From positions 1 through 21,339 of the IMG/VR virus record IMGVR_UViG_3300033143_003380: a stretch of 21,339 nt of DNA. One strand, given 5' to 3'. How positions within the stretch are numbered: the stretch's first letter is position 1; each line of letters starts with the position of its first letter. Below the pieces are notes generated by a model. The model was not told the DNA's origin. It did not search any database and saw only the letters and a list, made by a program, of their open reading frames with translations. Source of the DNA: a virus. Shown in pieces: positions 783-21,280 of this stretch. The position numbers and the translations under genes were made by a program.

Positions 783-1232
783 ATGATATTCAACATTCAA
801 AACCGAACGTACGATATTCTTAAATGGCTTGTTATGATTGTTTTCCCTGCCTTTGCCGTTCTTTATGGGACACTTGCCGATACTCTTGGCCTAGGAATGG
901 GCCCTGAGATTGTAGCCACAATCGGAGCAATTACAGGACTCCTTGGCGCTTATTTACAGATGAATATGGTTATGTATGCCCGATATGCGGGTATCGCACC
1001 AGAAGATAACACGAACTCGTACCCCTTCTCTATGTCAACCGATGTATACGATACCTTAAAATGGATGGTCAAGGTAGCGTTACCTAGCCTGGCAGTGGCG
1101 TATGTTGCATTAGCAAGTACCTGGGGATTCCCGTATATTGACGTGGTTCCCGTGGTCTTTAGTGCAATTGCCCTCTTCTTGGGTACGACTCTACAAATAA
1201 GTGCAAAACAATTCAAGCTTTCGCAGGTATAA
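783..1232 (+). CDS. Holin-like protein made of two tandem holin units
   Basis: 149 residues with two copies of the same hydrophobic unit. Copy 1 starts near residue 10 (YDILKWLVMIVFPAFAVLYG) and copy 2 near residue 89 (YDTLKWMVKVALPSLAVAYV). Each continues through a (W)G(L/F) turn into a second hydrophobic helix. The pattern YDxLKW...PxxAVxYxxLA, then W/LG, then a second span, matches small phage holins of the Dp-1-like type, which normally contain one such unit of about 75 residues. Four membrane helices are expected. Holins form inner-membrane holes that release endolysin at the end of infection. A good AAAGGAG lies 8 nt before ATG 783. A promoter motif overlaps the gene's 3' end and serves the next gene. 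An alternative is a membrane protein recruited to another role after duplication. Confidence 0.75.
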   Translation: MIFNIQNRTYDILKWLVMIVFPAFAVLYGTLADTLGLGMGPEIVATIGAITGLLGAYLQMNMVMYARYAGIAPEDNTNSYPFSMSTDVYDTLKWMVKVALPSLAVAYVALASTWGFPYIDVVPVVFSAIALFLGTTLQISAKQFKLSQV

Positions 1233-1246
1233 CATAGCCTATAATG
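1221..1246 (+). promoter_or_regulatory. Promoter for the 1277-1546 gene (TCGC-N15-TATAATG type)
   Basis: TATAAT at 1240-1245 follows TCGCAGG at 1221 with 19 nt from the T of TCGC to the T of TATAAT. There is no TTGACA-like -35 box. The same layout occurs at 1622-1647 and 12928-12953. Downstream comes GAAACCCATAACTTGAGAGGAG, where the last part is the ribosome binding site; the 1641 leader is closely similar. The element overlaps the end of the holin-like gene. Confidence 0.65.
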
Positions 1247-1276
1247 AAACCCATAACTTGAGAGGAGTTATTTAGA

Positions 1277-1621: not shown

Positions 1622-1647
1622 TCGCGGCAGTTACATATGCTATAATG
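1622..1647 (+). promoter_or_regulatory. Promoter for the 48-residue peptide gene (extended -10)
   Basis: TATAATG at 1641-1647 is preceded by TG at one base distance (TATGCTATAATG), giving an extended -10 box. TCGCGGC begins 19 nt upstream of the TATAAT, as in the promoters at 1221 and 12928. It sits between the terminator at 1581-1603 and the gene start at 1677, so it is well placed to start a short transcript. Confidence 0.75.
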
Positions 1648-1676
1648 AAACCATATTAACTTGAAAGGAGTTAGAA

Positions 1677-4549: not shown

Positions 4550-5464
4550 ATGAACGCTTCTAGTTTAGTACCAAAGTTAAAATTTATCGCCGGTAGGGGT
4601 GGACTCCTACTGAAGAAACACAGTCCGGATATTTTATTTGGATTGGGTATTACCGGTATGGTTGGTTCCACTATCTTAGCCAGTAAGGCTAGCATTAATC
4701 TCAAGCAAGTTCGAGAAGATAACGGTCTATCAGCCATGGAGGAGCGGATTCGGTTGTCTGCTCTAAATATGGATAAAGAATCGGTAGAATATAAGCAAGC
4801 CATTGGAAAGAACTATATGTCTAACACGTTTAAGTACGTTAAGATGTATGGTCCTGCAGTATCCTTGGGTGTTGCTAGTATTACCATGTTAGTCGTTGGT
4901 CACCAAAAAAGTAAGCAACGCGTTGCTTCTGCTATGGCAGCATTCACTCTCGTAGATAGAGCCTATGGACAGTATCGAGATCGTGTTGTTGACAAATATG
5001 GCGAGGAAGTAGATAACGACCTCCGCTTCGGAAAGGCTGAAAACCGTTCGTATTCCACCGTGGATGAGGACGGTAAAAAAAAGAAAGTCAAAAATCGTGT
5101 TTGGACCCTTGACGATGAGTCATCTGAATATGCTCGATTCTTCGACGAGTATTCTGTTCGTTGGCGAAGTGAATCAGGATTAAATTTGTATTTCTTGAAG
5201 ACCCAGCAAGCATATTACAATGATTTACTAATCACTCGTGGTCATGTATTCTTGAATGAAGTTTACGATGGTCTCGGCATCCCAAGAACCAAAGCTGGCG
5301 CGATCGTTGGTTGGGTTAAAGGTGATCCAAATGTAGACGGTGCTGGTGACGGTTATATTGACTTCGGTTTATATAGCGATTTGAACAAGGCGTTCATCAA
5401 TGGTCACGAAGTCTCTGTTCTAATCGATCCGAATGTTGATGGTGTTATTTACGATTTACTTTGA
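4550..5464 (+). CDS. DUF6353-like phage membrane protein (copy 2)
   Basis: 304 residues. A first membrane segment at about residues 26-46 (PDILFGLGITGMVGSTILAS) and a second at about 98-118 (KMYGPAVSLGVASITMLVVG) match copy 1 at 1907-2755. Both are followed by the helix with RVASAMAAFTLVDRAYGQYR. The C-terminal half is soluble and ends with the NVDGVIYDLL motif typical of the family as I know it; copy 1 lacks that ending. An AGGAG site precedes ATG 4550. The stop is TGA, and the same frame stays open for 41 more codons (see 5465-5590). The two copies are diverged and are probably not redundant. A role in membrane-associated organisation is possible but unproven. Confidence 0.8.
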   Translation: MNASSLVPKLKFIAGRGGLLLKKHSPDILFGLGITGMVGSTILASKASINLKQVREDNGLSAMEERIRLSALNMDKESVEYKQAIGKNYMSNTFKYVKMYGPAVSLGVASITMLVVGHQKSKQRVASAMAAFTLVDRAYGQYRDRVVDKYGEEVDNDLRFGKAENRSYSTVDEDGKKKKVKNRVWTLDDESSEYARFFDEYSVRWRSESGLNLYFLKTQQAYYNDLLITRGHVFLNEVYDGLGIPRTKAGAIVGWVKGDPNVDGAGDGYIDFGLYSDLNKAFINGHEVSVLIDPNVDGVIYDLL

Positions 5465-7282: not shown

Positions 7283-10200
7283 ATGGACTTTTATAAAATT
7301 AAAACTGTTTTGACTAAGAATGGTAGTTACTCGGTCTATCCAGACTTCGTAGTTACTAGATCTCATGATTTAATGGTTAGAGGCAGGTCTTTCTACGCCG
7401 TTTGGGACGAAGCCCAGAGACTGTGGAGCCTAGATGAGTACGATATACAACGCCTGGTTGATGCCGATATTCGAAAGCTTGTTGATAAAATTCAAGCTGA
7501 TGAGCCGTATGCGGAAGTAACACCCAAATTTATGTCTGACTTTAAATCACAAAGCTGGACATTGTTTCAACGTTATCTTTCTAATATATCCGACAACTAC
7601 AAAGTATTAGATAGCCAATTAACTTTTGCTGACGACGTACCAAAGAAGCTAGATTATGTGAGTAAGAAACTACCTTACTCTTTAGGTGATGGTACACATA
7701 GAGCCTGGGACGAACTCATGTCTACAATATATGCTAAACCCGAACGAGCTAAGTTAGAATGGGCTATAGGCGGTATTGTGGCAGGAGAGGCAAAAGATAT
7801 TCAGAAGTTTCTAGTGATCTATGGCGAGGCTGGTGGTGGAAAGTCGACAATACTAAATATCATTCAGAAATTATTTGATGGTTACTATACTACTTTTGAA
7901 GCAAAGGCTTTAACTAGTCAGAACAATACTTTCTCAACAGAAGTCTTCAGAAATAACCCGCTAGTTGCGGTACAACACGATGGTGATTTGTCAAAGATTA
8001 AAGACAATACTAAACTTAATTCTATGGTATCACATGAATACATGACCATGAATGAAAAATATAAGTCTAGTTATACTGCCAGGTCTAATGCCTTCTTGTT
8101 TATGGGTACTAATACCCCAGTTAAGATTTCAAGTAGTAAATCAGGTCTTATTCGTAGGTTGATAAACGTTAACACATCAGGTAAACGAGTTCCAACATTA
8201 CGTTATAATTTGTTACTAGCTCAAATAGAGTTCGAGCTCGGGAATATAGCACAACACTGCCTTAACACGTTTAACGATATGGGTAAACGATACTATGATA
8301 GCTATAGACCGTTGGAGATGATATTAGAGACGGATTTCTTCTTTAACTTCATAGAAGAATTCTACTTTATATTTAAAGACACACCGCAGATTACGCTAAA
8401 TCGAGGATACGATCTCTACAAAGAATACTGCACTGAAACCGGGTATGAATATCCCTTAGCTAAACACCGATTCAGAGCTGAGTTTGGTAACTACTTTAGT
8501 GACTTTAAAACTCATGATAGGATTAATGGTAAACTCACAAGAAGTGTTTATAGTCAATTTCGTACGGAGAAGTTCGAATCTCCGACTGGTACTGAAGAGA
8601 CCGTCCGTATCGTTCCGGTGTTGGATAGCGAGGTTTCTATATTTGACGAAATGTATCCCGATGCTCCGGCCCAGTATGCTACGACTACGGGTATTCCCAA
8701 AAATAAATGGTCAACGATAACCACAATTCTAGCGGATTTAGATACGTCCAAACTACACTATGTGAAACCACCGTTGAATCATATTGTAATCGACTTCGAT
8801 CTGAAAGATGAATCCGGAGAGAAATCCGAACAACTCAATCTAGAAGCTGCAGCTAAATGGCCTAAAACATACACAGAATATAGTAAGAGTAGATGTGGTA
8901 TTCATCTTCACTATCTATTTGATGGACCCGTTGAAGATCTCAGCAGGGTTTATGATCACGGGATAGAAGTTAAAGTATTTGTTGGTGACGCATCTCTCAG
9001 GCGAGCACTATATAAATGTAACGACATTCCCGTAGCTACTATATCTAGTGGTCTACAATTCAAGGAGGTTAGAAAAGTGTTAGATTTCACCGCAGTACAA
9101 AGCGTGAAAGGACTTAGAAAATTAATAGAGCGAAATCTAATGAAAGAAATACACCCGGGTACAAAACCGAGTATAGACTTTATACATCGTATATTAGAGG
9201 ACGCATATGATGGCGATCTTTCATACGATCTAACCGAAATGCGCCCGAAGATTCTAACCTTTGCTACAAGAAGTACCAATCAATCGACATATTGTGTTAG
9301 TCTTGTAGGTAAGATGAAATTTAAATCTGAAGAACCTGAATTAAAGAGTGAAGAGAATGACGTAGATCCAAATAGTTATGTCTTCTTTGATGTCGAGGTG
9401 TTCCCAAATCTATTGCTAGTTGTTTGGAAACTACCAGGAGAAGAGAATAAACCCGTGAGGATGATAAATCCGACGCCGTATGAAATGGAAGAACTAATAA
9501 AACTTCCCCTTATTGGCTTTAACAATCGCCGATACGATAATCATATTTTGTATGCTCGGTATTTGGGTTATACCAACGCTGAGATATATAAACTAAGCGT
9601 TAAGATTATCGGTGGGAGTCGCAACGCTATGTTTAGAGAGGCCTATGGACTTTCTTACGCGGATATTTACGACTTTACTACAAAGAAGCAAAGTCTAAAA
9701 GCGTACGAGTTAGAATTAGGACTAAGACATAACGAGTTGGATTTACCATGGGATAAATCCGTTCCAGAAGATCTGTGGGAGTTAGTTGCTGAATATTGCG
9801 ATGATGATGTCATAGCTACAGAAGCGACCTTCTATTCTAGAAAGCAGGATTTCGTTGCTCGACAAATTCTATCTGAGCTTAGCGGTTTACCAGTTAACAA
9901 CACAACCCAATCTCATACAGCAAAGATATTGTTTGCTGGGGATAAATACGCTAAAGATTCATTCGAATATAAAACTCTTTCCGAAGAATTTCCGGGGTAT
10001 ACCTTTGAGGTAGGTCAGAGTTTATATCGTGGTGAAAACCCAGGAGAAGGTGGATACGTATATTCTGAACCAGGAATGTATGAGGATGTTGTTCTTCTAG
10101 ATATAGCATCAATGCATCCAACCTCTATCGAGATACTAAACCTTTTTGGTAAATATACAGAGCGGTATAGTGCCATCAAACAGGCTCGATTAGCTATCAA

Positions 10201-11158
10201 ACATAAGAGGTTTGAAGAAGCAGCTGAGATGTTTGACGGGAAACTCAAACCATATCTAAGTTCAGAAGAGGGATCCGATGCGTTATCGTTTGCTTTAAAG
10301 ATAGTTATAAATATTGTCTATGGGTTAACCTCAGCTAAATTTGATAATCCATTCAAAGATAATCGAAATAAAGACAACATTGTGGCTAAGCGTGGATCAT
10401 TATTCATGATCGATTTAAAACATGCAGTACAAGGCCAAGGATATATGGTTGTTCACATTAAAACTGACTCCATTAAGATCCCAAATGCTGACCAGAAGAT
10501 AATTGACTTTGTATTTGATTTTGGTAAAAGATATGGGTATGACTTTGAACATGAAGCCACTTATGAAAAGTTTTGTTTGGTGAATAATGCGGTATACGTC
10601 GCAAAGAAAGTGGAAGGTGGATGGACAGCAATCGGAGCAGAATTTTCGCACCCCGTTGTTTTCAAGTCTTTGTTCTCTAAAGACCCGATAACTTTTGAGG
10701 ATCAATGCGAGACTAAAGCCGTGACCTCTCCCGCGAAAATATACATAGATCTTAATGAAGATTTGGAGGATGTATTTAAATATGAACAAGAACTAATCAA
10801 AAGAAATCGGTTGGAAGAAAACCCAGAGAAGAGAATAAAACTGAACCCTGATATGGGGGGGATGTCCATACCGGAGTTAGAGGAAATAATAGGTAGGGGA
10901 CATAACTATCAATTCGTTGGTAAGACAGGATCATTTTATCCGATAAAACCTGGCGCTGGAGGAGGTATCTTATATCGAGTTAAAGAAGATTCATATTATG
11001 CCGTATCGGGATCAAAGGGGTTCAGATGGTTGGAGCGAGATATGGTTCGAACCCTAAATAAAGAAGAAGACGTAGATAAACTATATCACAAAGCTGTAAT
11101 CGATAGTGCCGTGGATCATTTATCAGAATTTGGTGATGTAGGATGGTTTTTAACTTAA
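7283..11158 (+). CDS. SF3 helicase-primase-exonuclease-family B DNA polymerase fusion
   Basis: 1291 residues, much larger than a usual phage polymerase. The N-terminal part (about 1-330) is a D5-like SF3 helicase: Walker A GEAGGGKST 181-189, an acidic motif QHDGD 231-235, sensor FMGTNTP with N277, and arginines R291/R292. Next comes an archaeo-eukaryotic-type primase (about 440-640): D504-F-D506 and the C538-G-I-H-L-H543 motif. Then a DEDDy 3'-5' exonuclease: D703-V-E705, D752, Y838-C-D-D-D842. Last is a family B polymerase: motif A D940-I-A-S-M-H-P, motif B K1006...N1010-I-V-Y-G, motif C K1060-T-D1062-S. K1060 replaces the first Asp of the usual DTDS. The protein would open, prime and copy phage DNA with proofreading. 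CTTGAAAGGAG precedes ATG 7283. The SSB gene follows after 19 nt. The primase call is the least certain domain. Confidence 0.85.
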   Translation: MDFYKIKTVLTKNGSYSVYPDFVVTRSHDLMVRGRSFYAVWDEAQRLWSLDEYDIQRLVDADIRKLVDKIQADEPYAEVTPKFMSDFKSQSWTLFQRYLSNISDNYKVLDSQLTFADDVPKKLDYVSKKLPYSLGDGTHRAWDELMSTIYAKPERAKLEWAIGGIVAGEAKDIQKFLVIYGEAGGGKSTILNIIQKLFDGYYTTFEAKALTSQNNTFSTEVFRNNPLVAVQHDGDLSKIKDNTKLNSMVSHEYMTMNEKYKSSYTARSNAFLFMGTNTPVKISSSKSGLIRRLINVNTSGKRVPTLRYNLLLAQIEFELGNIAQHCLNTFNDMGKRYYDSYRPLEMILETDFFFNFIEEFYFIFKDTPQITLNRGYDLYKEYCTETGYEYPLAKHRFRAEFGNYFSDFKTHDRINGKLTRSVYSQFRTEKFESPTGTEETVRIVPVLDSEVSIFDEMYPDAPAQYATTTGIPKNKWSTITTILADLDTSKLHYVKPPLNHIVIDFDLKDESGEKSEQLNLEAAAKWPKTYTEYSKSRCGIHLHYLFDGPVEDLSRVYDHGIEVKVFVGDASLRRALYKCNDIPVATISSGLQFKEVRKVLDFTAVQSVKGLRKLIERNLMKEIHPGTKPSIDFIHRILEDAYDGDLSYDLTEMRPKILTFATRSTNQSTYCVSLVGKMKFKSEEPELKSEENDVDPNSYVFFDVEVFPNLLLVVWKLPGEENKPVRMINPTPYEMEELIKLPLIGFNNRRYDNHILYARYLGYTNAEIYKLSVKIIGGSRNAMFREAYGLSYADIYDFTTKKQSLKAYELELGLRHNELDLPWDKSVPEDLWELVAEYCDDDVIATEATFYSRKQDFVARQILSELSGLPVNNTTQSHTAKILFAGDKYAKDSFEYKTLSEEFPGYTFEVGQSLYRGENPGEGGYVYSEPGMYEDVVLLDIASMHPTSIEILNLFGKYTERYSAIKQARLAIKHKRFEEAAEMFDGKLKPYLSSEEGSDALSFALKIVINIVYGLTSAKFDNPFKDNRNKDNIVAKRGSLFMIDLKHAVQGQGYMVVHIKTDSIKIPNADQKIIDFVFDFGKRYGYDFEHEATYEKFCLVNNAVYVAKKVEGGWTAIGAEFSHPVVFKSLFSKDPITFEDQCETKAVTSPAKIYIDLNEDLEDVFKYEQELIKRNRLEENPEKRIKLNPDMGGMSIPELEEIIGRGHNYQFVGKTGSFYPIKPGAGGGILYRVKEDSYYAVSGSKGFRWLERDMVRTLNKEEDVDKLYHKAVIDSAVDHLSEFGDVGWFLT

Positions 11159-12927: not shown

Positions 12928-12966
12928 TCGCGCGTGAAACTTATGCTATAATGAGGGAATATCCCT
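12928..12966 (+). promoter_or_regulatory. Promoter of the virion insert, with an operator-like palindrome
   Basis: TATAATG at 12947-12953, with TG one base upstream (TATGCTATAATG), is an extended -10. TCGCGCG starts exactly 19 nt upstream, as in the promoters at 1221 and 1622. Immediately after it, AGGGA-ATA-TCCCT (12954-12966) is an inverted repeat that would overlap the transcription start, so it may be an operator or a 5' mRNA hairpin. It would drive the 13066-17480 genes. Confidence 0.75.
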
Positions 12967-13065: not shown

Positions 13066-13440
13066 ATGCCTAAAACAATTATTGATTCTATATTAGATGC
13101 AGCAATCGATGTGTTTGATCAGTGTACCGGAATGCATTTATGCTCAGATGAACCAACAACAAGAGCCGAAGCTGTAACGACATATCAACTAGCTTCAGCG
13201 GTAATGACACCAGATACAGATTTCACAAAAGCTGATGGTGGTACAAGTGGCCGAAAGGTTACAACTGCAGTTAAAAATGGAGTAATAGTAGATAACGATG
13301 GAACAGGAGACCATATTGCTTTTACAGATGGTTCCAATCTTCTGCATGTTACAACCTGTACTGGTCAAGCAGTTGTCGCAAACGGATCGAACGTTGTGAA
13401 TTTCCCCGCCTATGTTCTAGAGTTTAGAGATCCTACCTAA
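13066..13440 (+). CDS. Small phage virion-associated protein
   Basis: 124 residues. The N-terminal helix (IIDSILDAAIDVFDQCTGMH) leads into LCSDEPTTRAEAVTTYQLAS, then a beta-rich region with DGGTSGRKVTTAVKNGVIVD and FTDGSNLLHVTTCTGQAVV, ending FPAYVLEFRDPT. The combination 'CS.EPTT..EA..TY.LA', 'DG.TSGRKVT' and 'LL.VTTC..Q' is a pattern I know from phage structural regions, in many unrelated tailed phages; its exact place in the virion is not known. CGGAGGA precedes ATG 13066. It is the first gene of the GC-richer insert, followed after 5 nt by the Cys-rich gene. Confidence 0.75.
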   Translation: MPKTIIDSILDAAIDVFDQCTGMHLCSDEPTTRAEAVTTYQLASAVMTPDTDFTKADGGTSGRKVTTAVKNGVIVDNDGTGDHIAFTDGSNLLHVTTCTGQAVVANGSNVVNFPAYVLEFRDPT

Positions 13441-13445
13441 TAACG

Positions 13446-13790
13446 GTGAATAAGAATAATAAAAAATTACAATCAATTCCAGACTTACCAGAATGGACAG
13501 AGGAGAGACACCTTTATGTCATGGCGGGTCTGGAATTGGTTGCGTATAAGCGTCAGGGTGAAGAATGGAAAGTAAAAACATCCCGATGCTCTATGTGCGG
13601 AACTTGTTGCGAAAACATAGGCAAATATCCGGGGACAGAGTTTTTTCCAATCAATAAAGATGGAAGTTGTGGTCATCTTAAAAGTGATGGCAACAAAAGA
13701 GTCTGTGGATTGGGATTATCAAGACCCTTCTCATGTTCTGTAGGACTGGGATTGAATAGACATAAAGGGAGTACAGAACGTTTTGAGTAA
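13446..13790 (+). CDS. CxxCxxCC metal-binding protein (YkgJ-like)
   Basis: 114 residues from GTG 13446, with a weak ribosome site, so probably coupled to the previous gene. Seven cysteines follow the YkgJ/CxxCxxCC pattern: C48-S-M-C51-G-T-C54-C55, then G-S-C75-G-H, C87-G-L and R-P-F-S-C97. This family is thought to bind zinc or iron, and in cells some members sit in proteins linked to protein modification. Inside a phage structural operon its job is unknown: a virion assembly factor, a metal-binding part of the virion, or an enzyme acting on a neighbouring structural protein. All cluster residues I expect are present, so the protein looks intact. Confidence 0.75.
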   Translation: MNKNNKKLQSIPDLPEWTEERHLYVMAGLELVAYKRQGEEWKVKTSRCSMCGTCCENIGKYPGTEFFPINKDGSCGHLKSDGNKRVCGLGLSRPFSCSVGLGLNRHKGSTERFE

Positions 13791-13803
13791 AAGGAGATAA
13801 ACC

Positions 13804-14715
13804 ATGTCAGCAAAAAATCCCAATCTACAAGCAAGTAGGATACTCAATGCAACTAGGGTAGCTCAGGCAGCCGACGATACACCGGTTACCGATTGGTCGT
13901 TATCTGCTCCGTTCATTGTGGTCATGCAGCTTGATGAGACGGCAGGACCATGGACGGCGACCTACAAAATTCGCTGGCGCCGAACATTAGGTACTTTTGC
14001 TGACTTAGGCGCAACTGGAGAAATGAAGACCACCACGGCCACAGACCTCACTAATGGTAATGCTGTAACCATTGGAGAGAAAGCTTGTACCAATACTCCT
14101 AGTGGCCCATGGCAAGATGGTGAAGAGGTCGAGGGTACTGGCACTGCAGATAGTATCACCTTACAGGATGAAGATTATACCGAGGTACACTTTGCTGTTG
14201 ACCCTGCAGATGCTAACGATTTCCAAGAGTATGAGTTCGAAATCTATGACGTGACCAACGGAGCGGCAATTGGGACTGCAGAGGCTACACTCACAACCGG
14301 AGCAGGTGCAGCCTCTTATGACCTTGTACCAAGTGACTCATATATTCTTCTAGCTGCAGATAATGTGACTATGGAATATGAAACCGACGACGATCTTGTA
14401 CCAAGCGACTCTTATATTCTCTTGGCTGCAGATAACGTAACAGTCGAATACGTAGTAGTTTACGACCTTGTACCAAGTGACTCTTATATTCTCTTGGCTG
14501 CAGATAACGTAACAGTCGAATACGTAGTAGTTTACGACCTTATACCAAGTGACTCCTATATTCTTCTGGCTGCAGATAATGTAACCATGGAATATGAAAC
14601 AACTGATGATCTTATACCAAGTGACTCCTATATTCTCTTGGCTGCAGATAATGTAACAGTTGAGTATGAAACAACCGATGACCTTATACCAAGTGACTCT
14701 TATATTATAATGTAA
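13804..14715 (+). CDS. Virion/adhesin repeat protein, 5' part of a frame-split gene
   Basis: 303 residues. An N-terminal domain (about 1-172) is beta-rich and phage-structural in character (TWTATYKIRW-type strands; DWSLSAPFIVVMQLDETAGP, YEFEIYDVTNGAAIG). From residue 173 come five complete units and a broken sixth of the 24-residue repeat DLVPSDSYILLAADNVTVEY plus four variable residues. In unit 6, bases matching CTCTTGGCTGCAG (13 nt) are missing, so the frame runs into TAA 14713-14715. The other frame, open from 14697, carries on the repeat (NVTVEY) and then the whole 14820-17480 protein. The simplest reading is one gene of about 1225 codons with a frameshift. AAAGGAG precedes ATG 13804. A surface or tail-fibre role is likely. 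Assembly error is an alternative. Confidence 0.75.
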   Translation: MSAKNPNLQASRILNATRVAQAADDTPVTDWSLSAPFIVVMQLDETAGPWTATYKIRWRRTLGTFADLGATGEMKTTTATDLTNGNAVTIGEKACTNTPSGPWQDGEEVEGTGTADSITLQDEDYTEVHFAVDPADANDFQEYEFEIYDVTNGAAIGTAEATLTTGAGAASYDLVPSDSYILLAADNVTMEYETDDDLVPSDSYILLAADNVTVEYVVVYDLVPSDSYILLAADNVTVEYVVVYDLIPSDSYILLAADNVTMEYETTDDLIPSDSYILLAADNVTVEYETTDDLIPSDSYIIM

Positions 14716-14738
14716 CAGTTGAGTATACAGAAGGCGGA
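14320..14738 (+). repeat. 72-bp coding repeat array 1 (6 units)
   Basis: Units start at 14320, 14392, 14464, 14536, 14608 and 14680. Each encodes DLVPSDSYILLAADNVTVEY with a variable four-residue linker (ETDD, VVVY, VVVY, ETTD, ETTD). Units 2 and 3 are nearly identical in DNA, which points to recent duplication. The sixth unit is 59 bp long because 13 nt are missing. Confidence 0.95.
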
Positions 14739-14819
14739 GTCGCTGGTACAGTAGTTGTTGCCACAGTTAAAGTCGCTTGCAATACAGGCACGGGCGATCA
14801 GACTATAACCACATCGGAC

Positions 14820-17480
14820 TTGGGGGGATTGACTCCAAAAGCCGCAATGTTTACTTTGACTAAAGCGATTACAGACGGTATACCTGCCGATCATGCGGCT
14901 TTATCTACCGGATTTACAGACGGTACAAATCATGTTTCGACCTTAGTCCAGTCAGAAGATGGGTCAACCGGAGCAGACGTAAACAGACGCGGAGCAACCA
15001 ATCGAATTTGTACCGTGTTAACCGTAACCGGACAACTTGATGGAGAAGCTAGTTTTAAGGAGTGGACAACAAACGGCGTGGTTATTACGTGGGAAGATGC
15101 TCTTGACGCCGCTTATTTATTAACTGTAGTCTTTTACGCCGGGGAGGATGTAACCGCAGATGTTGGTACACATTTATTAGAGCACGATCAAACATCTGCA
15201 ATAACGGGATTAGGTTATGAGCCAGATTTGATTTTTGTGTTTGGGCACGGTGGGTCATACGATACTGGCAACGATAACGACTTTGTTGTACTAATGGGTA
15301 TTGGCTCCAACGAAGCTACATTGAAACAGGGTGCACACACGCTACACGACAAGCACGGCGCGTCAGCAAGTTTAATAAGTGAATATATAAGCGATGAAAG
15401 AATAGCCGTCAATCTATATAACGATGGAATATCACGTACATTTAAAATTAATACATTTGATGCGGGCGGAGTAACATTTTCCACTAAGCAAGAGGGTGTT
15501 ACCGACGCCGACCTTTGGGTTTGTTACATGACATTGAATTTTGGCGGGGCGGCTGCCACATGGCTAGGATGGGTAGACACGAGAACAACTATTGGAAGTC
15601 AGTCAATTACTGACCCCGGATTTACACCGCAAACCGTTATAACGCTACCCGCGCACCTTGATACCTTGAACACAATAGAGAGAGCCTTTGTTGGCGGTGT
15701 TGGTATAGGGGCGTTTGACGAAAACGATGAATATACTAACTTGATCTACAACGAGGACGGACTAGCAACCACGAACACCGGGAATGTGTCTGACGACAAA
15801 GCCCTGATCATTTTAGACGAAACGGGGGCGGTTGATGTTGTAGCCGCGTTTACCAGTTTTGACGCCAATGGTTGGACTTGGAATTATTCAGCGGTCAATC
15901 TTACAGCGCAAAAAGTTTTATGCCTTGCGATAGAAGAAACCGATGGTTCAGGTGCAGCCTCTTATGACCTTGTACCAAGTGACTCATATATTCTTCTAGC
16001 TGCAGATAATGTGACAGTTGAATATGAAACAACCGATGATCTTATACCAAGTGACTCCTATATTCTCCTGGCTGCAGACAATGTAACAGTTGAGTATATG
16101 GAAATTCATGACCTTGTACCAAGTGACTCATATATTCTCTTGGCTGCAGATAATGTAACAGTTGAATATATGGAAATTCATGATCTTGTACCGGACGATT
16201 CTTATATTCTCTTGGCTGCAGACAATGTGACTGTTGAGTATGAAACAACTGATGATCTTATACCAAGTGACTCCTATATTCTCTTGGCTGCAGATAATGT
16301 AACAGTTGAGTATGAAACAACCGATGACCTTATACCAAGTGACTCTTATATTGCAGATAATGTAACAGTTGAGTATATAGCAGGGTATAGTCTCATACCA
16401 AGCGATTCTTATATTCTCCTAGCCGCAGACAATGTGACTGTTGAGTATGAAACAACCGATGACCTTGTACCAAGTGACTCTTATATTCTCCTGGCTGCAG
16501 ATAATGTAACAGTTGAATATGAAACAACCGATGATCTTATACCAAGTGGCTCCTATATTCTCCTGGCTGCAGACAATGTAACAGTTGAGTATATGGAAAT
16601 TCATGACCTTGTACCAAGTGATTCACATATTCTCTTGGTTGCAGATAATGTAACAGTTGGATATGCAGAAGGGTATAGCATCATACCAAGCGATTCATAT
16701 ATTCTCCTAGCCGCAGACAATGTGACTGTTGAGTATGAAACAACCGATGATCTTGTACCAGACGACTCATATATTCTCCTGGCTGCAGACAATGTAACAG
16801 TTGAGTATGTAGGAAGCTATAATCTCGTACCAAGCGATTCATATATTCTCTTGGCTGCAGATAATGTAACCATGGAATATGAAACAACTGATGACCTTGT
16901 ACTAAGCGATTCACATATTATCCTAGCTGCAGACAATGTAACAATTGCCTATCAAGAAATTCACGACCTTGTATTAAGTGATTCGTATATTCTCTTGGCT
17001 GCAGACAATGTAACAGTTGAATATGTAGAAGTATACGATCTTGTATCTAGTGATTCCTATATTCTTCTGGCTGCAGATAATGTAACAATTGCTTACATAG
17101 AGATCCACAACCTTATACCAAGTGACTCCTATATTCTCCTGGCTGCAGATAATGTAATCATTGAATATGACGCAACATATGATCTTGTATTAAGTGATTC
17201 GTATATTCTTCTTGCTGCCGACAATGTAACAGTTGTGTTTGCAGAAGTCTATGATATCATACCGGACGATTCGTACATTGATGTAATAGCAGCAAATATT
17301 GATATTACGACCGGTGATGGAGGGATAAATCTAGTCATACCCAAATCATATATCGATTATTATGTGCGGTGTAACAATATGACTATTAATTATATACCTA
17401 CCTACTATGTCCTACCAAGCAATTCATATATTTCGTTGCATGCAGATAATGTGACAGTTGAAATAATTGAATTTGCCTAG
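14820..17480 (+). CDS. Virion/adhesin repeat protein, 3' part of a frame-split gene
   Basis: 886 residues if translated from TTG 14820, but no ribosome site is present. The frame is open from 14697 with coding-like sequence (NVTVEYTEGGVAGTVVV), so it is best read as the continuation of the 13804 gene. Residues 1-380 contain beta-sandwich-like domains known from phage virion proteins: GGLTPKAAMF, FTDGTNHVST, RRGATN, GEASFKEW, then GLGYEPDLIFVFG and WLGWVDTRT. From residue 383 there are 21 units of the DLVPSDSYILLAADNVTVEY repeat. The first 13 are highly alike and the last ones degenerate. Expected location is the virion surface or tail, binding the host. No chaperone or enzyme motif is seen. 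It has no terminator after it. Confidence 0.75.
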   Translation: MGGLTPKAAMFTLTKAITDGIPADHAALSTGFTDGTNHVSTLVQSEDGSTGADVNRRGATNRICTVLTVTGQLDGEASFKEWTTNGVVITWEDALDAAYLLTVVFYAGEDVTADVGTHLLEHDQTSAITGLGYEPDLIFVFGHGGSYDTGNDNDFVVLMGIGSNEATLKQGAHTLHDKHGASASLISEYISDERIAVNLYNDGISRTFKINTFDAGGVTFSTKQEGVTDADLWVCYMTLNFGGAAATWLGWVDTRTTIGSQSITDPGFTPQTVITLPAHLDTLNTIERAFVGGVGIGAFDENDEYTNLIYNEDGLATTNTGNVSDDKALIILDETGAVDVVAAFTSFDANGWTWNYSAVNLTAQKVLCLAIEETDGSGAASYDLVPSDSYILLAADNVTVEYETTDDLIPSDSYILLAADNVTVEYMEIHDLVPSDSYILLAADNVTVEYMEIHDLVPDDSYILLAADNVTVEYETTDDLIPSDSYILLAADNVTVEYETTDDLIPSDSYIADNVTVEYIAGYSLIPSDSYILLAADNVTVEYETTDDLVPSDSYILLAADNVTVEYETTDDLIPSGSYILLAADNVTVEYMEIHDLVPSDSHILLVADNVTVGYAEGYSIIPSDSYILLAADNVTVEYETTDDLVPDDSYILLAADNVTVEYVGSYNLVPSDSYILLAADNVTMEYETTDDLVLSDSHIILAADNVTIAYQEIHDLVLSDSYILLAADNVTVEYVEVYDLVSSDSYILLAADNVTIAYIEIHNLIPSDSYILLAADNVIIEYDATYDLVLSDSYILLAADNVTVVFAEVYDIIPDDSYIDVIAANIDITTGDGGINLVIPKSYIDYYVRCNNMTINYIPTYYVLPSNSYISLHADNVTVEIIEFA
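15966..17477 (+). repeat. 72-bp coding repeat array 2 (21 units)
   Basis: Tandem units like array 1, starting at 15966 right after the same GAASY junction sequence that precedes array 1. Linkers alternate among ETTD, MEIH, IAGY, VGSY, AEGY and others. One unit lacks 9 nt in frame (SYIADNV instead of SYILLAADNV). The three last units are strongly diverged. Units near the 5' side are nearly identical to each other and to array 1. Confidence 0.95.
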
Positions 17481-17509
17481 TAGATAAAACACTCTTGAAA
17501 GGAGATCCC

Positions 17510-17809
17510 ATGGCTGGTGAAATAGTATTTGAAAGAAGGTTAGTAGATAAACTTTTGGATAGATATCCAGGTGCTTATGTGTTAAAGAATAACCCGAATT
17601 ATATACAGGGGTTTCCAGATAGATTATTCTTGTATAGAAATTTTTGGGCAGCATTCGAAACAAAGATCCATGCCGATGCTAGCGTTCAACCAAATCAAGC
17701 GTATTATGTTGAGCATCTAAACGATTTATCCTTAGCCATGTTTGTTTATCCAGAAAACGAAAAGGAGTTCTTACGTGAAATACAATTCGCACTCCTCCGT
17801 CAAAGGTAA
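17510..17809 (+). CDS. VRR-NUC-like PD-(D/E)XK nuclease
   Basis: 99 residues from ATG 17510. A TTG at 17495 would extend it, but the TTG is part of the ribosome site CTTGAAAGGAG, so I start at ATG. The core motif is QGFPD37RLFLYRNFWAAFE50TK52: the conserved G-x-P-D then E-x-K of VRR-NUC-type endonucleases. Upstream E8 and the Y-P-G loop, and downstream Q-P-N-Q-A-Y-Y, also fit. These small phage enzymes act as Holliday-junction or structure-specific endonucleases in recombination and repair. It is the first gene after the virion insert and overlaps the next gene by 35 nt in another frame. Confidence 0.85.
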   Translation: MAGEIVFERRLVDKLLDRYPGAYVLKNNPNYIQGFPDRLFLYRNFWAAFETKIHADASVQPNQAYYVEHLNDLSLAMFVYPENEKEFLREIQFALLRQR

Positions 17810-18341
17810 ACATGCATTTTTGAGTCCTAGTCAATATCATTGGACAAACTATACCGAAGAGAAATTAATTAAACGTTTCCATGCCTATCGGGCAGCAGAA
17901 AGGGGCACACAACTCCATGAGTTAGCAGAAAAATTGATAGGTTTAGGTATAAAGATGCCAGCTAACGATACGGCATTTAGCTTATTCGTTAATGATGCTA
18001 TAGGATATGGCATGGTTCCAGAATTAATTCTATATTACTCTGAAAATTCATTCGGGACTGCTGATGCTGTGATATTTAAAGATGGTTTGCTTAGAATTCA
18101 CGATTTGAAAACCGGAGTCACAAAAGCTTCGGTCCGTCAATTGGAAGTCTATGCTTCTTTGTTCTGTTTGGAATATGAAGTTGATCCAGAGGACATAGAG
18201 ATAGAACTAAGAATTTATCAAGGGTCAGAAGTTATGATCTATGAACCAAACATCGAATTATTAACGCGTATTATGGAAACCATTGTCGAATTTGACAATA
18301 TTGTCGACGAACTAAAAGATAAAGTTGGAGTAACGATATGA
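17775..18341 (+). CDS. Cas4/RecB-like PD-(D/E)XK exonuclease
   Basis: 188 residues from GTG 17775, which lies 7 nt after AAAGGAG. A longer start at 17742 has no such site. Motifs follow the PD-(D/E)XK_1 pattern: G44-T-Q-L-H48 (the conserved HxxAE helix), F93-G-T-A-D97-A, D110-L-K112-T-G and the QLEVYA (Q122...Y126) motif. Phage proteins of this kind act as single-strand exonucleases or recombination nucleases. There is no iron-sulfur cysteine cluster, unlike Cas4 proper. It overlaps the VRR-NUC gene at the 5' end and the RNA polymerase-like gene at the 3' end (ATGA), so the three genes are translationally linked. Confidence 0.85.
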   Translation: MKYNSHSSVKGKHAFLSPSQYHWTNYTEEKLIKRFHAYRAAERGTQLHELAEKLIGLGIKMPANDTAFSLFVNDAIGYGMVPELILYYSENSFGTADAVIFKDGLLRIHDLKTGVTKASVRQLEVYASLFCLEYEVDPEDIEIELRIYQGSEVMIYEPNIELLTRIMETIVEFDNIVDELKDKVGVTI

Positions 18342-20983
18342 CAAAAACTATAAAACACTATGGTATTAAACGGCGTTCTGGTAGATACCCATGGGGGACT
18401 GGTGGTCATAGTCAACAACGAACGTCGGATTTTTTAGGTATCGTTGCTGAATTAAAGTCAGAAGGTCTTAGTGATAAAGAAGTAGCTAAAGCTATGGGAA
18501 TGTCCACCACAGCTTTAATACAAAATAAGTCCTTAGCCAAAGCTGAATTAAGAAGTGCCAATGAATCTCAAGCCCACAGATGGAAAGAGAAAGGAATGTC
18601 TAATGTTGCTATCGGAAAGCGAATGGGTATCAATGAATCCAGTGTTAGAGCACTATTAGATCCATCGATTAGTGCACGAGCTGCCGTAACAAAAAATACA
18701 TCCGAATATCTATCAGGTGTTATGGCCACTGAAGGCGTTATCGATATTGGTGTTGGTGTGGAAAGTGGATTAGGAATTAGTAGAACAAAACTCAATACCG
18801 CAGTAAAAGCTTTAGAAAATAAAGGTTACGAGGTATATTATATAAAAACACCACAACTAGGTACTGGTAAATTTACTAGTATTAAAGTGTTAGCTCCACC
18901 AGGAACTTCATATGGTGACGTATATAATGATCGAGCTAATATAGCCATACTTTCGGGACATTCGGATGATGGCGGTAGGAGCTTCTTAGGTTTGAAGCCG
19001 ATTCAAAATGTATCTGGTGAACGAATACATATTCGTTATGATGAAGATGGTGGTGGCGATAAAGATGGTGTTATAGAACTTCGACGTGGTGTAGATGATC
19101 TTGACTTAGGACAAGCCAAATATGCACAAGTTCGAATCGGCGTTGATGGTACACACTTTATGAAAGGTATGGCTATATATTCAGAATCTATTCCAGATGG
19201 TTCTGATATAATATATAATACAAGAAAAAAGAAAAGTGAGGCTCTACGACCAGAGGATATTTATAAACCGATTACAGCAGATCCAGATAATCCCTTTGGC
19301 GCAACAATAAAGTTAGGTGGTCAACGAGGGGCGTTAAATGTGGTCAATGAGGAGGGAGATTGGGGACAGTGGTCTAAAACAATATCCTCCCAGATACTAT
19401 CAAAACAATCCCCAGCTCTTGCAAAACGACAGTTAGAGCTGTCATATGATATAAAAAAGGCAGAATTTGATGAGGTAATGTCGTTAACTAATCCTGTTGT
19501 GAAGGCGCATTTATTACAAGGTTTTGCCGATGATGCAGATTCTTCTTCGGCTTATCTTAAAGCCGTAGCATTACCTAGACAAGCGACACATGTTGTTTTA
19601 CCAGTACCTTCGATGAGTATAAAAGAAGTTTATGCGCCAATGTATAATAATGGTGAAAATGTAGTTTTAATTCGACACCCTCATGGTGGAGTTTTTGAGA
19701 TACCAGAATTAACAGTTAATAATCGAAATCCAGAAGCTAAAAGTATTATGAAGAATGCTATAGATGCTGTTGGAATACACCCTAAGGTAGCACAAAAACT
19801 TTCAGGTGCTGATTTTGATGGGGATTTTGTAGTTGTTATACCAAATAAACGTGGCGAGATTCGAACTGCCCCATCGCTAAAGGCATTAAAAAACTTTGAT
19901 CCGATTGAAGCTTATCCTGGATATAAAGGTATGCCAGTAATGGAAGGTCCAAATAAACAATTAGAGATGGGTAAAGTTTCGAACCTTATCACAGATATGA
20001 CAATTAAGGGCGCTACACAGAATGAGATAGCAAAGGCTGTTAAACACTCGATGGTTGTTATTGATGCCGAGAAACATGGATTGAATTACAAACAATCAGC
20101 TTTTGATAATACTATAGCTGAACTAAAAATCAAGTATCAAGGGGCTGCTAATGCCGGTGCTTCAACACTAATCTCTAAGGCTAAGTCCCAAGTCAGAGTC
20201 CCTTTTCGAAAAGAGGGCGTACTGATTACCGACCCAAAGACGGGTAAAACTAAACGTGTATACATAGACAAGCGAACTGGAAAGAAGTTGTATGAAGAAA
20301 CCGGCGAGTCTTATGTAAACAAAAAAGGTATAACGGTTAAACGCCAACAGGTAATTAGTAACATGATCAAAGCTAAATCGGCTTTTGAGTTGTCATCTGG
20401 TACTAGAATGGAAACGATCTATGCTACCTATGCTGATCGGTTAAAGGGTTTGGCTAATAAGGCTAGACTAGCAGTCTTAGACACACCGAGACAGGTCTAT
20501 GTAGCAAAGGCTAAGAAAGCTTTTCAACCACAAGTTGATAGTTTATTAGCTAAGCTTAGGCTTGCAGACAGAAACAAACCGTTGGAAAGAAAAGCTCAGC
20601 TAGTTGCCAATAAGATCTACCGTGAGAAGTTAAAGGGTAATCCTTCGATGGATGCGGCAGATAAGAAGAGACTACGGGGGCAGGTCCTAACTGAAGCCCG
20701 CACCCGTTTAAATGCAAAGAAGCCTGAGATTGAGATAACGCCTAAAGAATGGACTGCCATTCAACTGGGAGCAGTTAGTCATCATACTGTTACCCGTATC
20801 ATTAAAAGCGCTAACCAGGAGATGCTAAAACAATTAGCTATCCCAAGGACTGCATATGTAATGACTACGGCTAAGGTATCAAAAGCTAATGCCATGGCGG
20901 CTGTAGGATACACACCAGCTGAGATAGCATTTGCACTAGGCGTCTCCGCAACAACAGTAACCAATACACTTGGTGGTGGATAA
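18338..20983 (+). CDS. YonO/QDE-1-like single-chain RNA polymerase with HTH segments
   Basis: 881 residues. The key signature is SGAD492FD494GD496FVVVIP, the metal-binding DxDGD of the two-barrel RNA polymerase fold (beta', QDE-1, YonO, crAss-type phage polymerases). Upstream, VVLIR446HPHGGVFEIPELTV resembles the beta' region before DFDGD, where NRxPxxHR leads into the catalytic loop. Two helix-turn-helix-like segments lie near residues 42-63 (EGLSDKEVAKAMGMSTTALI) and 82-107 (KGMSNVAIGKRMGINESSVR), and one at the C-terminus, about 857-878 (YTPAEIAFALGVSATTVTNT). The N-terminus carries HYGIKRRSGRYPWGTG, which I know from gut-phage relatives. The likely role is a phage-encoded RNA polymerase that finds its own promoters by the HTH segments; that is inference. 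RdRP activity cannot be excluded. ATG 18338 overlaps the nuclease stop. Confidence 0.8.
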   Translation: MTKTIKHYGIKRRSGRYPWGTGGHSQQRTSDFLGIVAELKSEGLSDKEVAKAMGMSTTALIQNKSLAKAELRSANESQAHRWKEKGMSNVAIGKRMGINESSVRALLDPSISARAAVTKNTSEYLSGVMATEGVIDIGVGVESGLGISRTKLNTAVKALENKGYEVYYIKTPQLGTGKFTSIKVLAPPGTSYGDVYNDRANIAILSGHSDDGGRSFLGLKPIQNVSGERIHIRYDEDGGGDKDGVIELRRGVDDLDLGQAKYAQVRIGVDGTHFMKGMAIYSESIPDGSDIIYNTRKKKSEALRPEDIYKPITADPDNPFGATIKLGGQRGALNVVNEEGDWGQWSKTISSQILSKQSPALAKRQLELSYDIKKAEFDEVMSLTNPVVKAHLLQGFADDADSSSAYLKAVALPRQATHVVLPVPSMSIKEVYAPMYNNGENVVLIRHPHGGVFEIPELTVNNRNPEAKSIMKNAIDAVGIHPKVAQKLSGADFDGDFVVVIPNKRGEIRTAPSLKALKNFDPIEAYPGYKGMPVMEGPNKQLEMGKVSNLITDMTIKGATQNEIAKAVKHSMVVIDAEKHGLNYKQSAFDNTIAELKIKYQGAANAGASTLISKAKSQVRVPFRKEGVLITDPKTGKTKRVYIDKRTGKKLYEETGESYVNKKGITVKRQQVISNMIKAKSAFELSSGTRMETIYATYADRLKGLANKARLAVLDTPRQVYVAKAKKAFQPQVDSLLAKLRLADRNKPLERKAQLVANKIYREKLKGNPSMDAADKKRLRGQVLTEARTRLNAKKPEIEITPKEWTAIQLGAVSHHTVTRIIKSANQEMLKQLAIPRTAYVMTTAKVSKANAMAAVGYTPAEIAFALGVSATTVTNTLGGG

Positions 20984-20995
20984 AGGAGGTATAGA

Positions 20996-21280
20996 GTGCC
21001 AAAAACTAAAGAACAGTCAAACAAAGTCATGCTTACTACAATTGACAATCCTTACAATCCATTCACCCAGTTCGATCAATGGTTGAACTATGATGTTAGT
21101 CAAGGTTACAATACCTGTGGCCTACTCTCTAGAATTGCCCGCACCTCACCAAGTTTAAGCGTTGTTGATCAGGCATTAGCTATAGTTATTGCAATGGACG
21201 AGATCGTAGCTCATAATGTTATGGGTGTTCACAAGAAAGTTACAGATAAAGATTATACAGATATTGTGTTAAAAACATAA
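20996..21280 (+). CDS. Small conserved phage protein upstream of the presumed packaging genes
   Basis: 94 residues from GTG 20996, 6 nt after AAAGGAGGT. The motif MLTTIDNPYNPFTQFDQW, then GYNTCGLLSRIARTS, then DQALAIVIAMDEIV is a pattern I recognise from many phages, where it lies between an RNA polymerase-like or nuclease gene and the terminase. Its function is unknown; the size and charge suggest a small soluble factor. The gene is followed by a G-run/C-run hairpin and then the window ends, so the terminase is not seen. Confidence 0.7.
   Translation: MPKTKEQSNKVMLTTIDNPYNPFTQFDQWLNYDVSQGYNTCGLLSRIARTSPSLSVVDQALAIVIAMDEIVAHNVMGVHKKVTDKDYTDIVLKT

Follow-up and report, generated by a model that had tools for sequence, protein, structure and literature searches.

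Genes and features of the locus

We analysed the virus record IMGVR_UViG_3300033143_003380, a stretch of 21,339 bases that we call the window. Its right end encodes two nucleases, a protein of 881 residues and a small protein, and three copies of a promoter-like motif lie further upstream (Table 1). A preliminary description of this DNA had reported the large ORF together with SGADFDGDFVVVIP, in which DFDGD occupies residues 492-496, and we found both exactly as described. The ORF belongs to the PHROG 4291 family, whose profile matches it over its full length (1132 bits, residues 4-879 of 881). This match and the 250 phage records that match the protein indicate that the ORF is not a product of chance. 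All but one of these records (249) match over at least 80% of the query, the best with 52.6% identity, and they are mostly from phages of Arthrobacter, Gordonia, Streptomyces, and Lactococcus. Further homologues were found in more than 500 stretches in IMG/VR and in 152 GTDB contigs, and a search of plasmids gave no match.

Table 1. Coordinates of the features discussed in the text, as positions in the window.
Feature	Coordinates	Strand	Basis or context
Promoter-like motif TCGCAGGTATAACATAGCCTATAATGAAACC...	1221-1256	+	Shares bases with the end of the holin ORF; small ORF 1277-1546 follows
Promoter-like motif TCGCGGCAGTTACATATGCTATAATGAAACC..., early region	1622-1657	+	Repeat and PWM
Promoter-like motif, right after the helicase stop, conserved operon position	12928-12954	+	Pattern and PWM; ORFs 13066-17480 inserted between motif and VRR-Nuc
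Small stem-loop AGGGA/TCCCT, immediately behind the TATAAT of the 12928 copy	12954-12966	+	Leader folding
VRR-Nuc-type endonuclease, opens the conserved operon	17495-17809	+	PHROG 93, 7e-10; VRR-Nuc annotation in relatives
Cas4/RecB-like exonuclease, overlaps the polymerase start	17742-18341	+	PHROG 3953, 2.4e-73; DUF2800, 3.4e-8
Single-chain two-barrel RNA polymerase (predicted), PHROG 4291 family, 881 aa, ATG start	18338-20983	+	Profile, matching phage records, alignment, AF2, Foldseek, hhalign
Residues 1-186 (N-terminal), with the disordered SGRYPWG motif, a pair of HTH repeats (~32-107), and a winged HTH (~133-186)	18338-18895	+	Pfam HTH, AF2 helices and strands, at least 90% conserved HTH positions
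K276-G277, expected basic residue of barrel 1, invariant R266 ahead	19163-19168	+	Invariant in 115 sequences; same R...KG order in the YonO family
DFDGD metal-binding triad of barrel 2, residues 492-496	19811-19825	+	Invariant; aligned to DxDGD of YonO by profile comparison
C-terminal three-helix HTH, residues 844-881	20867-20980	+	Pfam HTH_23, 3.4e-9, and Sigma70_r4_2, 2.4e-6; AF2 helices 844-856, 860-867, 871-878
Small protein, PHROG 4303, candidate accessory factor	20996-21280	+	Directly 3' of the polymerase in nearly all loci where visible

The linkage to nucleases noticed in the preliminary description is real but is not peculiar to the window, since the VRR-Nuc gene, the Cas4/RecB-like exonuclease, the polymerase, and the small ORF form a conserved operon. 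The order primase-polymerase, SSB, helicase, VRR-Nuc, exonuclease, polymerase, and small ORF recurs in phages of Streptomyces, Arthrobacter, Gordonia, and Faecalibacterium, with insertions in some, and Lactococcus phage 1706 has extra genes between the exonuclease and the polymerase. The AF2 model of the small protein (pLDDT 88), which carries an invariant DNPxxPF...W motif, found no fold match in the PDB. In the relatives whose genomes are complete, the operon is followed by late genes that point the same way, either directly, as in a temperate Faecalibacterium phage, or across the joined genome ends, as in the linear genomes of Streptomyces, Arthrobacter, Gordonia, and Lactococcus phages.

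The phage homologues are usually annotated as 'helix-turn-helix DNA-binding domain protein', and the label of PHROG 4291 is 'RNA-dependent RNA polymerase'. Hence, the earlier view that the HTH flanking and the linked nucleases are uncharacterised must be qualified: the family is already catalogued in hundreds of phages under one or the other name, but we found no functional study. The open-access literature that we searched describes the RNA polymerases (RNAPs) of YonO, P23-45, crAss-like, and jumbo-phage type, and we found in it no study of the PHROG 4291 family or of the motif presented below.

A predicted two-barrel polymerase with helix-turn-helix units at both ends

The alignment of 115 homologues revealed a set of invariant residues: DFDGD (D492, D494, and D496), R446-x-P448-H449, R266, K276-G277, G545, and N549. 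Two-barrel polymerases have DxDxD on one barrel and basic residues on the other, and the invariant DFDGD, R266, and K276 correspond to this arrangement, in the same order as in YonO. The AF2 model of the protein has a mean pLDDT of 88.8 and a pTM of 0.81, with residues 1-28 and 207-217 disordered. Its best Foldseek matches in the PDB are QDE-1 (1.7e-9), maize RDR2 (1.6e-7), and gp64 of phage P23-45 (9.8e-7), from which we deduce the barrel topology. Global TM-scores are low (~0.3), as expected for a shared core within divergent surroundings, and a phmmer search of the protein against PDB sequences returned chance matches only. A predicted structure lacking double-psi barrels had been named beforehand as a result that would refute the assignment, and these matches do not point that way. 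The model thus points to a two-barrel polymerase fold in one chain, and this fold, together with the conserved catalytic residues, suggests that the protein is an active polymerase.

The preliminary description had counted two HTHs at the N-terminus and one at the C-terminus. Both ends do carry such units, but Pfam and AF2 agree on four of them, three N-terminal and one C-terminal. The Pfam matches lie near residues 36-60, 76-107, 145-167, and 850-880, in agreement with the AF2 helices, and the model of residues 133-186 resembles a winged HTH. The HTH positions are at least 90% conserved among the 115 aligned homologues. Ahead of these units stands a universal motif, KHYG..RRSGRYPWGSG, in a disordered N-terminal segment. 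We considered RSGRYPWGSG as a general phage targeting tag and rejected the idea, as the motif is absent from the other proteins of the polymerase loci.

Comparison with known polymerases

The kinship with YonO, named as a relative in the preliminary description, and with QDE-1 as single-chain two-barrel polymerases is supported by Foldseek, by hhalign, and by a shared motif order. YonO, from Bacillus phage SPbeta, resembles the window protein in being a single chain of about 840-880 aa, and its family has eight catalytic motifs in the same order as ours (DG, R, KG, Q, RxPH, DxDGD, G-x-x-SN, ID..K). BLAST and single-sequence profile comparisons with YonO found nothing real. The comparison of the two family alignments by hhalign gave an E-value of 1.3e-4 and a probability of 53% over 126 columns, from RxPH through DFDGD to G-x-x-SN, which we take as evidence of homology.

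QDE-1 and RDR2, the best Foldseek matches, are eukaryotic RNAi polymerases that have both barrels in one chain, as in the window protein. They are RNA-silencing enzymes and, to our knowledge, have neither a flanking HTH array nor a phage operon. The non-virion RNAP gp64 of P23-45 is also a phage single-chain two-barrel polymerase, but it is smaller (~590 aa), and its paper, which assigns it a GC-rich promoter motif, mentions no HTH (PMC10770324). The virion RNAP gp66 of crAss-like phage phi14:2 (PDB 6vr4), again a phage two-barrel RNAP in one chain, differs in its length of 2180 aa and in being a virion protein, and it is not among the listed PDB matches of our model. Pfam detects no domain at all in YonO and the crAss-like RNAP, and so no HTH, whereas the window protein has four HTH units. 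Structurally, it is mainly this flanking array that sets the protein apart from those relatives that have been characterised.

A rigid promoter-like motif accompanies the polymerase

Repeats found in three Streptomyces phages led us to a rigid motif, TCGCR-N6-ACAT-N4-TATARTGA, and repeats of the window led independently to the same element; its three window copies are all on the polymerase strand. TCGC and TATART stand exactly 15 nt apart in 81 of 92 cases. Positions left free by the pattern are informative too, as shown by GGC ahead of the TATA box and CCCCTAC following TGAGAC in one group. About a dozen copies in the Lactococcus phage follow the variant form yCrCA-TTTTACATAyaCTATAGTAG.

We then measured how closely the motif and the polymerase go together. 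A regular expression gave 25 matches on the polymerase strand and 2 on the opposite strand of other polymerase loci. The strict 30-nt pattern occurs in at least 119 IMG/VR stretches, against about one expected by chance as estimated from base counts, and scrambled patterns gave 0 matches (same length) and 10 (shorter). Among the contigs of at least 30 kb with the motif, 34 of 39 encode the polymerase, and motif and gene are on the same strand in all 34. The other five lack the region of the gene: three carry the primase-polymerase but end, or have no further sequence, before the place of the exonuclease and polymerase, and two are fragments without the replication module beyond its edge. The polymerase was found in none of 10 control contigs, most of which are short.

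A position weight matrix (PWM) applied to 169 polymerase loci (2.2 Mb) with a score of at least 18 gave 146 sites on the polymerase strand and 1 on the opposite strand, relative to 0.5 per strand in shuffled sequences; this matrix (iteration 0) was trained on the loci of the pattern scan, and because a number of its contigs also belong to the tested loci, the test is independent of the training only in part. Iterations 1 and 2 were retrained on polymerase-strand hits, so that their strand bias is not independent evidence, and iteration 0 remains the figure that we trust. With a matrix that was not trained on the window, its site at 1221 reaches a score of 44.8 and the one at 1622 a score of 31.9. 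A matrix retrained on polymerase-strand hits placed a copy ahead of the operon, ~0.9-1.6 kb upstream from the polymerase gene, for 144 of the 161 loci. The motif is present in all seven complete genomes of Streptomyces, Arthrobacter, Gordonia, Lactococcus, and Faecalibacterium phages.

The copies stand before early genes and before the nuclease-exonuclease-polymerase operon. We saw none in front of the terminase genes of the genomes examined, and an alignment of the genome-end junctions of three Streptomyces phages showed conserved blocks and no motif copy. YonO, a strict DNA-dependent RNAP, transcribes the late genes of SPbeta, its promoter being not known and the need for other factors having been left open (PMC5467207). 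The yonO gene lies upstream of the terminase and portal genes, in the same direction. A similar late-gene role would agree with the gene order in our family, but the motif copies precede early genes and the polymerase's own operon. We found no clear copy in the SPbeta stretch searched (yonN-yonK region). The association of motif and polymerase is at the level of the phage lineage; since members of this lineage have the primase-polymerase, SSB, helicase, and exonuclease in common as well, the motif could be read by a different shared factor.

Predicted transcription start

In most cases, an early copy is followed at 10-30 nt by a start codon with a ribosome-binding site. Behind the operon copies comes a stem-loop that varies in sequence; its 5' arm starts 0-2 nt after TATAAT in 92 of 149 cases, versus 35 of 149 in shuffled sequences. 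A folding z-score below -2 was observed for 44% of the operon leaders against 7% of the other sites, and removal of the first 6 nt of the operon leaders costs 4.2 kcal/mol. The sequence AGAAGGAG after the operon TATAAT was considered as a ribosome-binding site and discarded, because it forms the 5' arm of the hairpin, with the start of the gene lying further on. We found no enrichment of TTGACA at the spacings usual for a sigma-70 -35 box (spacers of 15-19 nt): for a box 16-18 nt from TATAAT, the mean number of matches is 1.1-2.0 of 6, and 4 or more matches occur in 2-9% of the sites. The hairpin directly after TATAAT, the folding of the leaders, and the lack of a -35 box suggest that the RNA would start directly beside the TATA box and not at the sigma-70 distance. 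As markers of the start site, tRNA genes provided one case only.

We also searched 32 genomes for region 2 of sigma-70 and did not find it, although the controls worked. A search for T7-type RNAPs is uninformative because its controls were silent. Separately, a T-rich stretch usually follows the 5'-terminal hairpin of the operon leaders (for instance in loci L033, L073, L091, and L161), and the two together could be a stabiliser, an attenuator, or a terminator.

A possible self-amplifying polymerase and its alternatives

We consider it probable that the protein is a DNA-dependent phage RNAP that amplifies itself and uses the motif through promoter-binding domains within its own chain. It would begin RNA synthesis at this rigid promoter, immediately after the TATA box. 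Copies of the putative promoter precede small early or middle genes between the lysis and replication modules, as well as the operon of the two nucleases, the polymerase, and its small partner protein. Given the copy ahead of its operon, the polymerase, once some exists, would amplify its own expression. Read-through from the operon could carry transcription into the late genes in the same direction, and late expression would need it since no copy was seen before the terminase genes. That the polymerase reads the motif is the simplest account of an element kept across unlike hosts, without a -35 box, with rigid spacing, and in a group where 32 genomes revealed no sigma-70 region 2. The earlier suggestion that the HTHs stand in for sigma receives indirect support from the same polymerase-linked motif and from the lack of a detectable sigma factor in these genomes. 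Further points against our explanation are that TATAAT resembles the -10 box of host sigma factors and that early genes need transcription before newly made polymerase exists. Concerning this timing, either the genes in question are middle genes, or the host RNAP helps initially, or the enzyme is packaged. We see an even balance for and against the broader picture of a sigma-independent single-chain two-barrel RNAP whose HTH array reads the promoter and which initiates directly at the TATA box, with positive feedback on its own operon, a dedicated small subunit, and spread together with its promoter through phages whose hosts belong to several phyla.

The resemblance of TATAAT to the sigma-70 -10 box also suggests that the host RNAP may read the motif, perhaps with a phage activator on TCGC/ACAT, and that the two-barrel polymerase has another target. 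The sites drive early genes, which host RNAP would normally transcribe. Against this reading, TTGACA is lacking at spacers of 15-19 nt, the spacing of the motif is fixed, a sigma-type start would truncate the leader hairpins, and the motif is kept across phages of hosts from different phyla. We regard this reading as unlikely.

We find it a little less plausible still that the polymerase is packaged in the virion, injected with the DNA, and transcribes the early genes at the motif, like crAss-like gp66 and P23-45 gp96. It is a variant of our preferred explanation that differs in timing, and it would fit the motif copies before early genes, the search that found no phage sigma factor, and the universal, disordered N-terminal motif. 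On the other hand, the annotation of Lactococcus phage 1706 marks several ORFs as structural and the polymerase is not among them, the gene lies among replication nucleases and not tail genes, and no other protein of the polymerase loci has the N-terminal motif.

It is very improbable that the protein is a genuine RNA-dependent RNA polymerase, as the PHROG label implies, and acts on RNA of the phage or its host. The closest solved folds are indeed eukaryotic RNAi polymerases, and there is a weak match to the Pfam RdRP profile (PF05183; E-value 0.007), but at 15.6 bits it stays below the gathering cut-off of 23.8. Moreover, QDE-1 is in the PDB also with a DNA template (7y7s), YonO strictly prefers DNA, and the protein has several DNA-binding HTHs in a dsDNA phage context. 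The label is probably wrong about the template. Finally, a catalytically dead DNA-binding regulator, in line with the 'HTH DNA-binding domain protein' annotation of many homologues, is hardly credible given that DFDGD, R266, K276, RxPH, and G..SN are invariant in 115 sequences.

What is new here is a promoter-like cis-element that accompanies the polymerase across hundreds of phages. Together with a minimal enzyme, it makes testable how such a polymerase finds its start sites. The family offers hundreds of natural enzyme-promoter pairs, cultured phages included, for which promoter, start site, and recognition domains are all predicted. If our explanation is true, these phages would reveal how promoters can be located without sigma by the simplest enzymes related to cellular RNA polymerase, the widespread 'RNA-dependent RNA polymerase' label would have to be corrected, and the family could be a source of compact orthogonal polymerases for Gram-positive and other hosts.

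Other genes of the window

The window encodes a fused D5-like primase-helicase and family-B-like DNA polymerase at 7283-11158 (1291 aa, PHROG 4210). The ORF at 13446-13790 (114 aa) has CSMCGTCC and further cysteines and resembles a metal-cluster protein, with no Pfam match. The ORFs at 13804-14715 and 14820-17480 share a 72-nt tandem repeat (~5 and ~18 copies, within 14316-17235) coding for DLVPSDSYILLAADNVTVEYETT, and they sit within the otherwise conserved interval between the helicase and VRR-Nuc. Closer to the left end, the ORF at 1907-2755 belongs to DUF6353 (7.7e-53) and the one at 4550-5464 looks similar; relatives of DUF6353 recur in Faecalibacterium phage FP_oengus.
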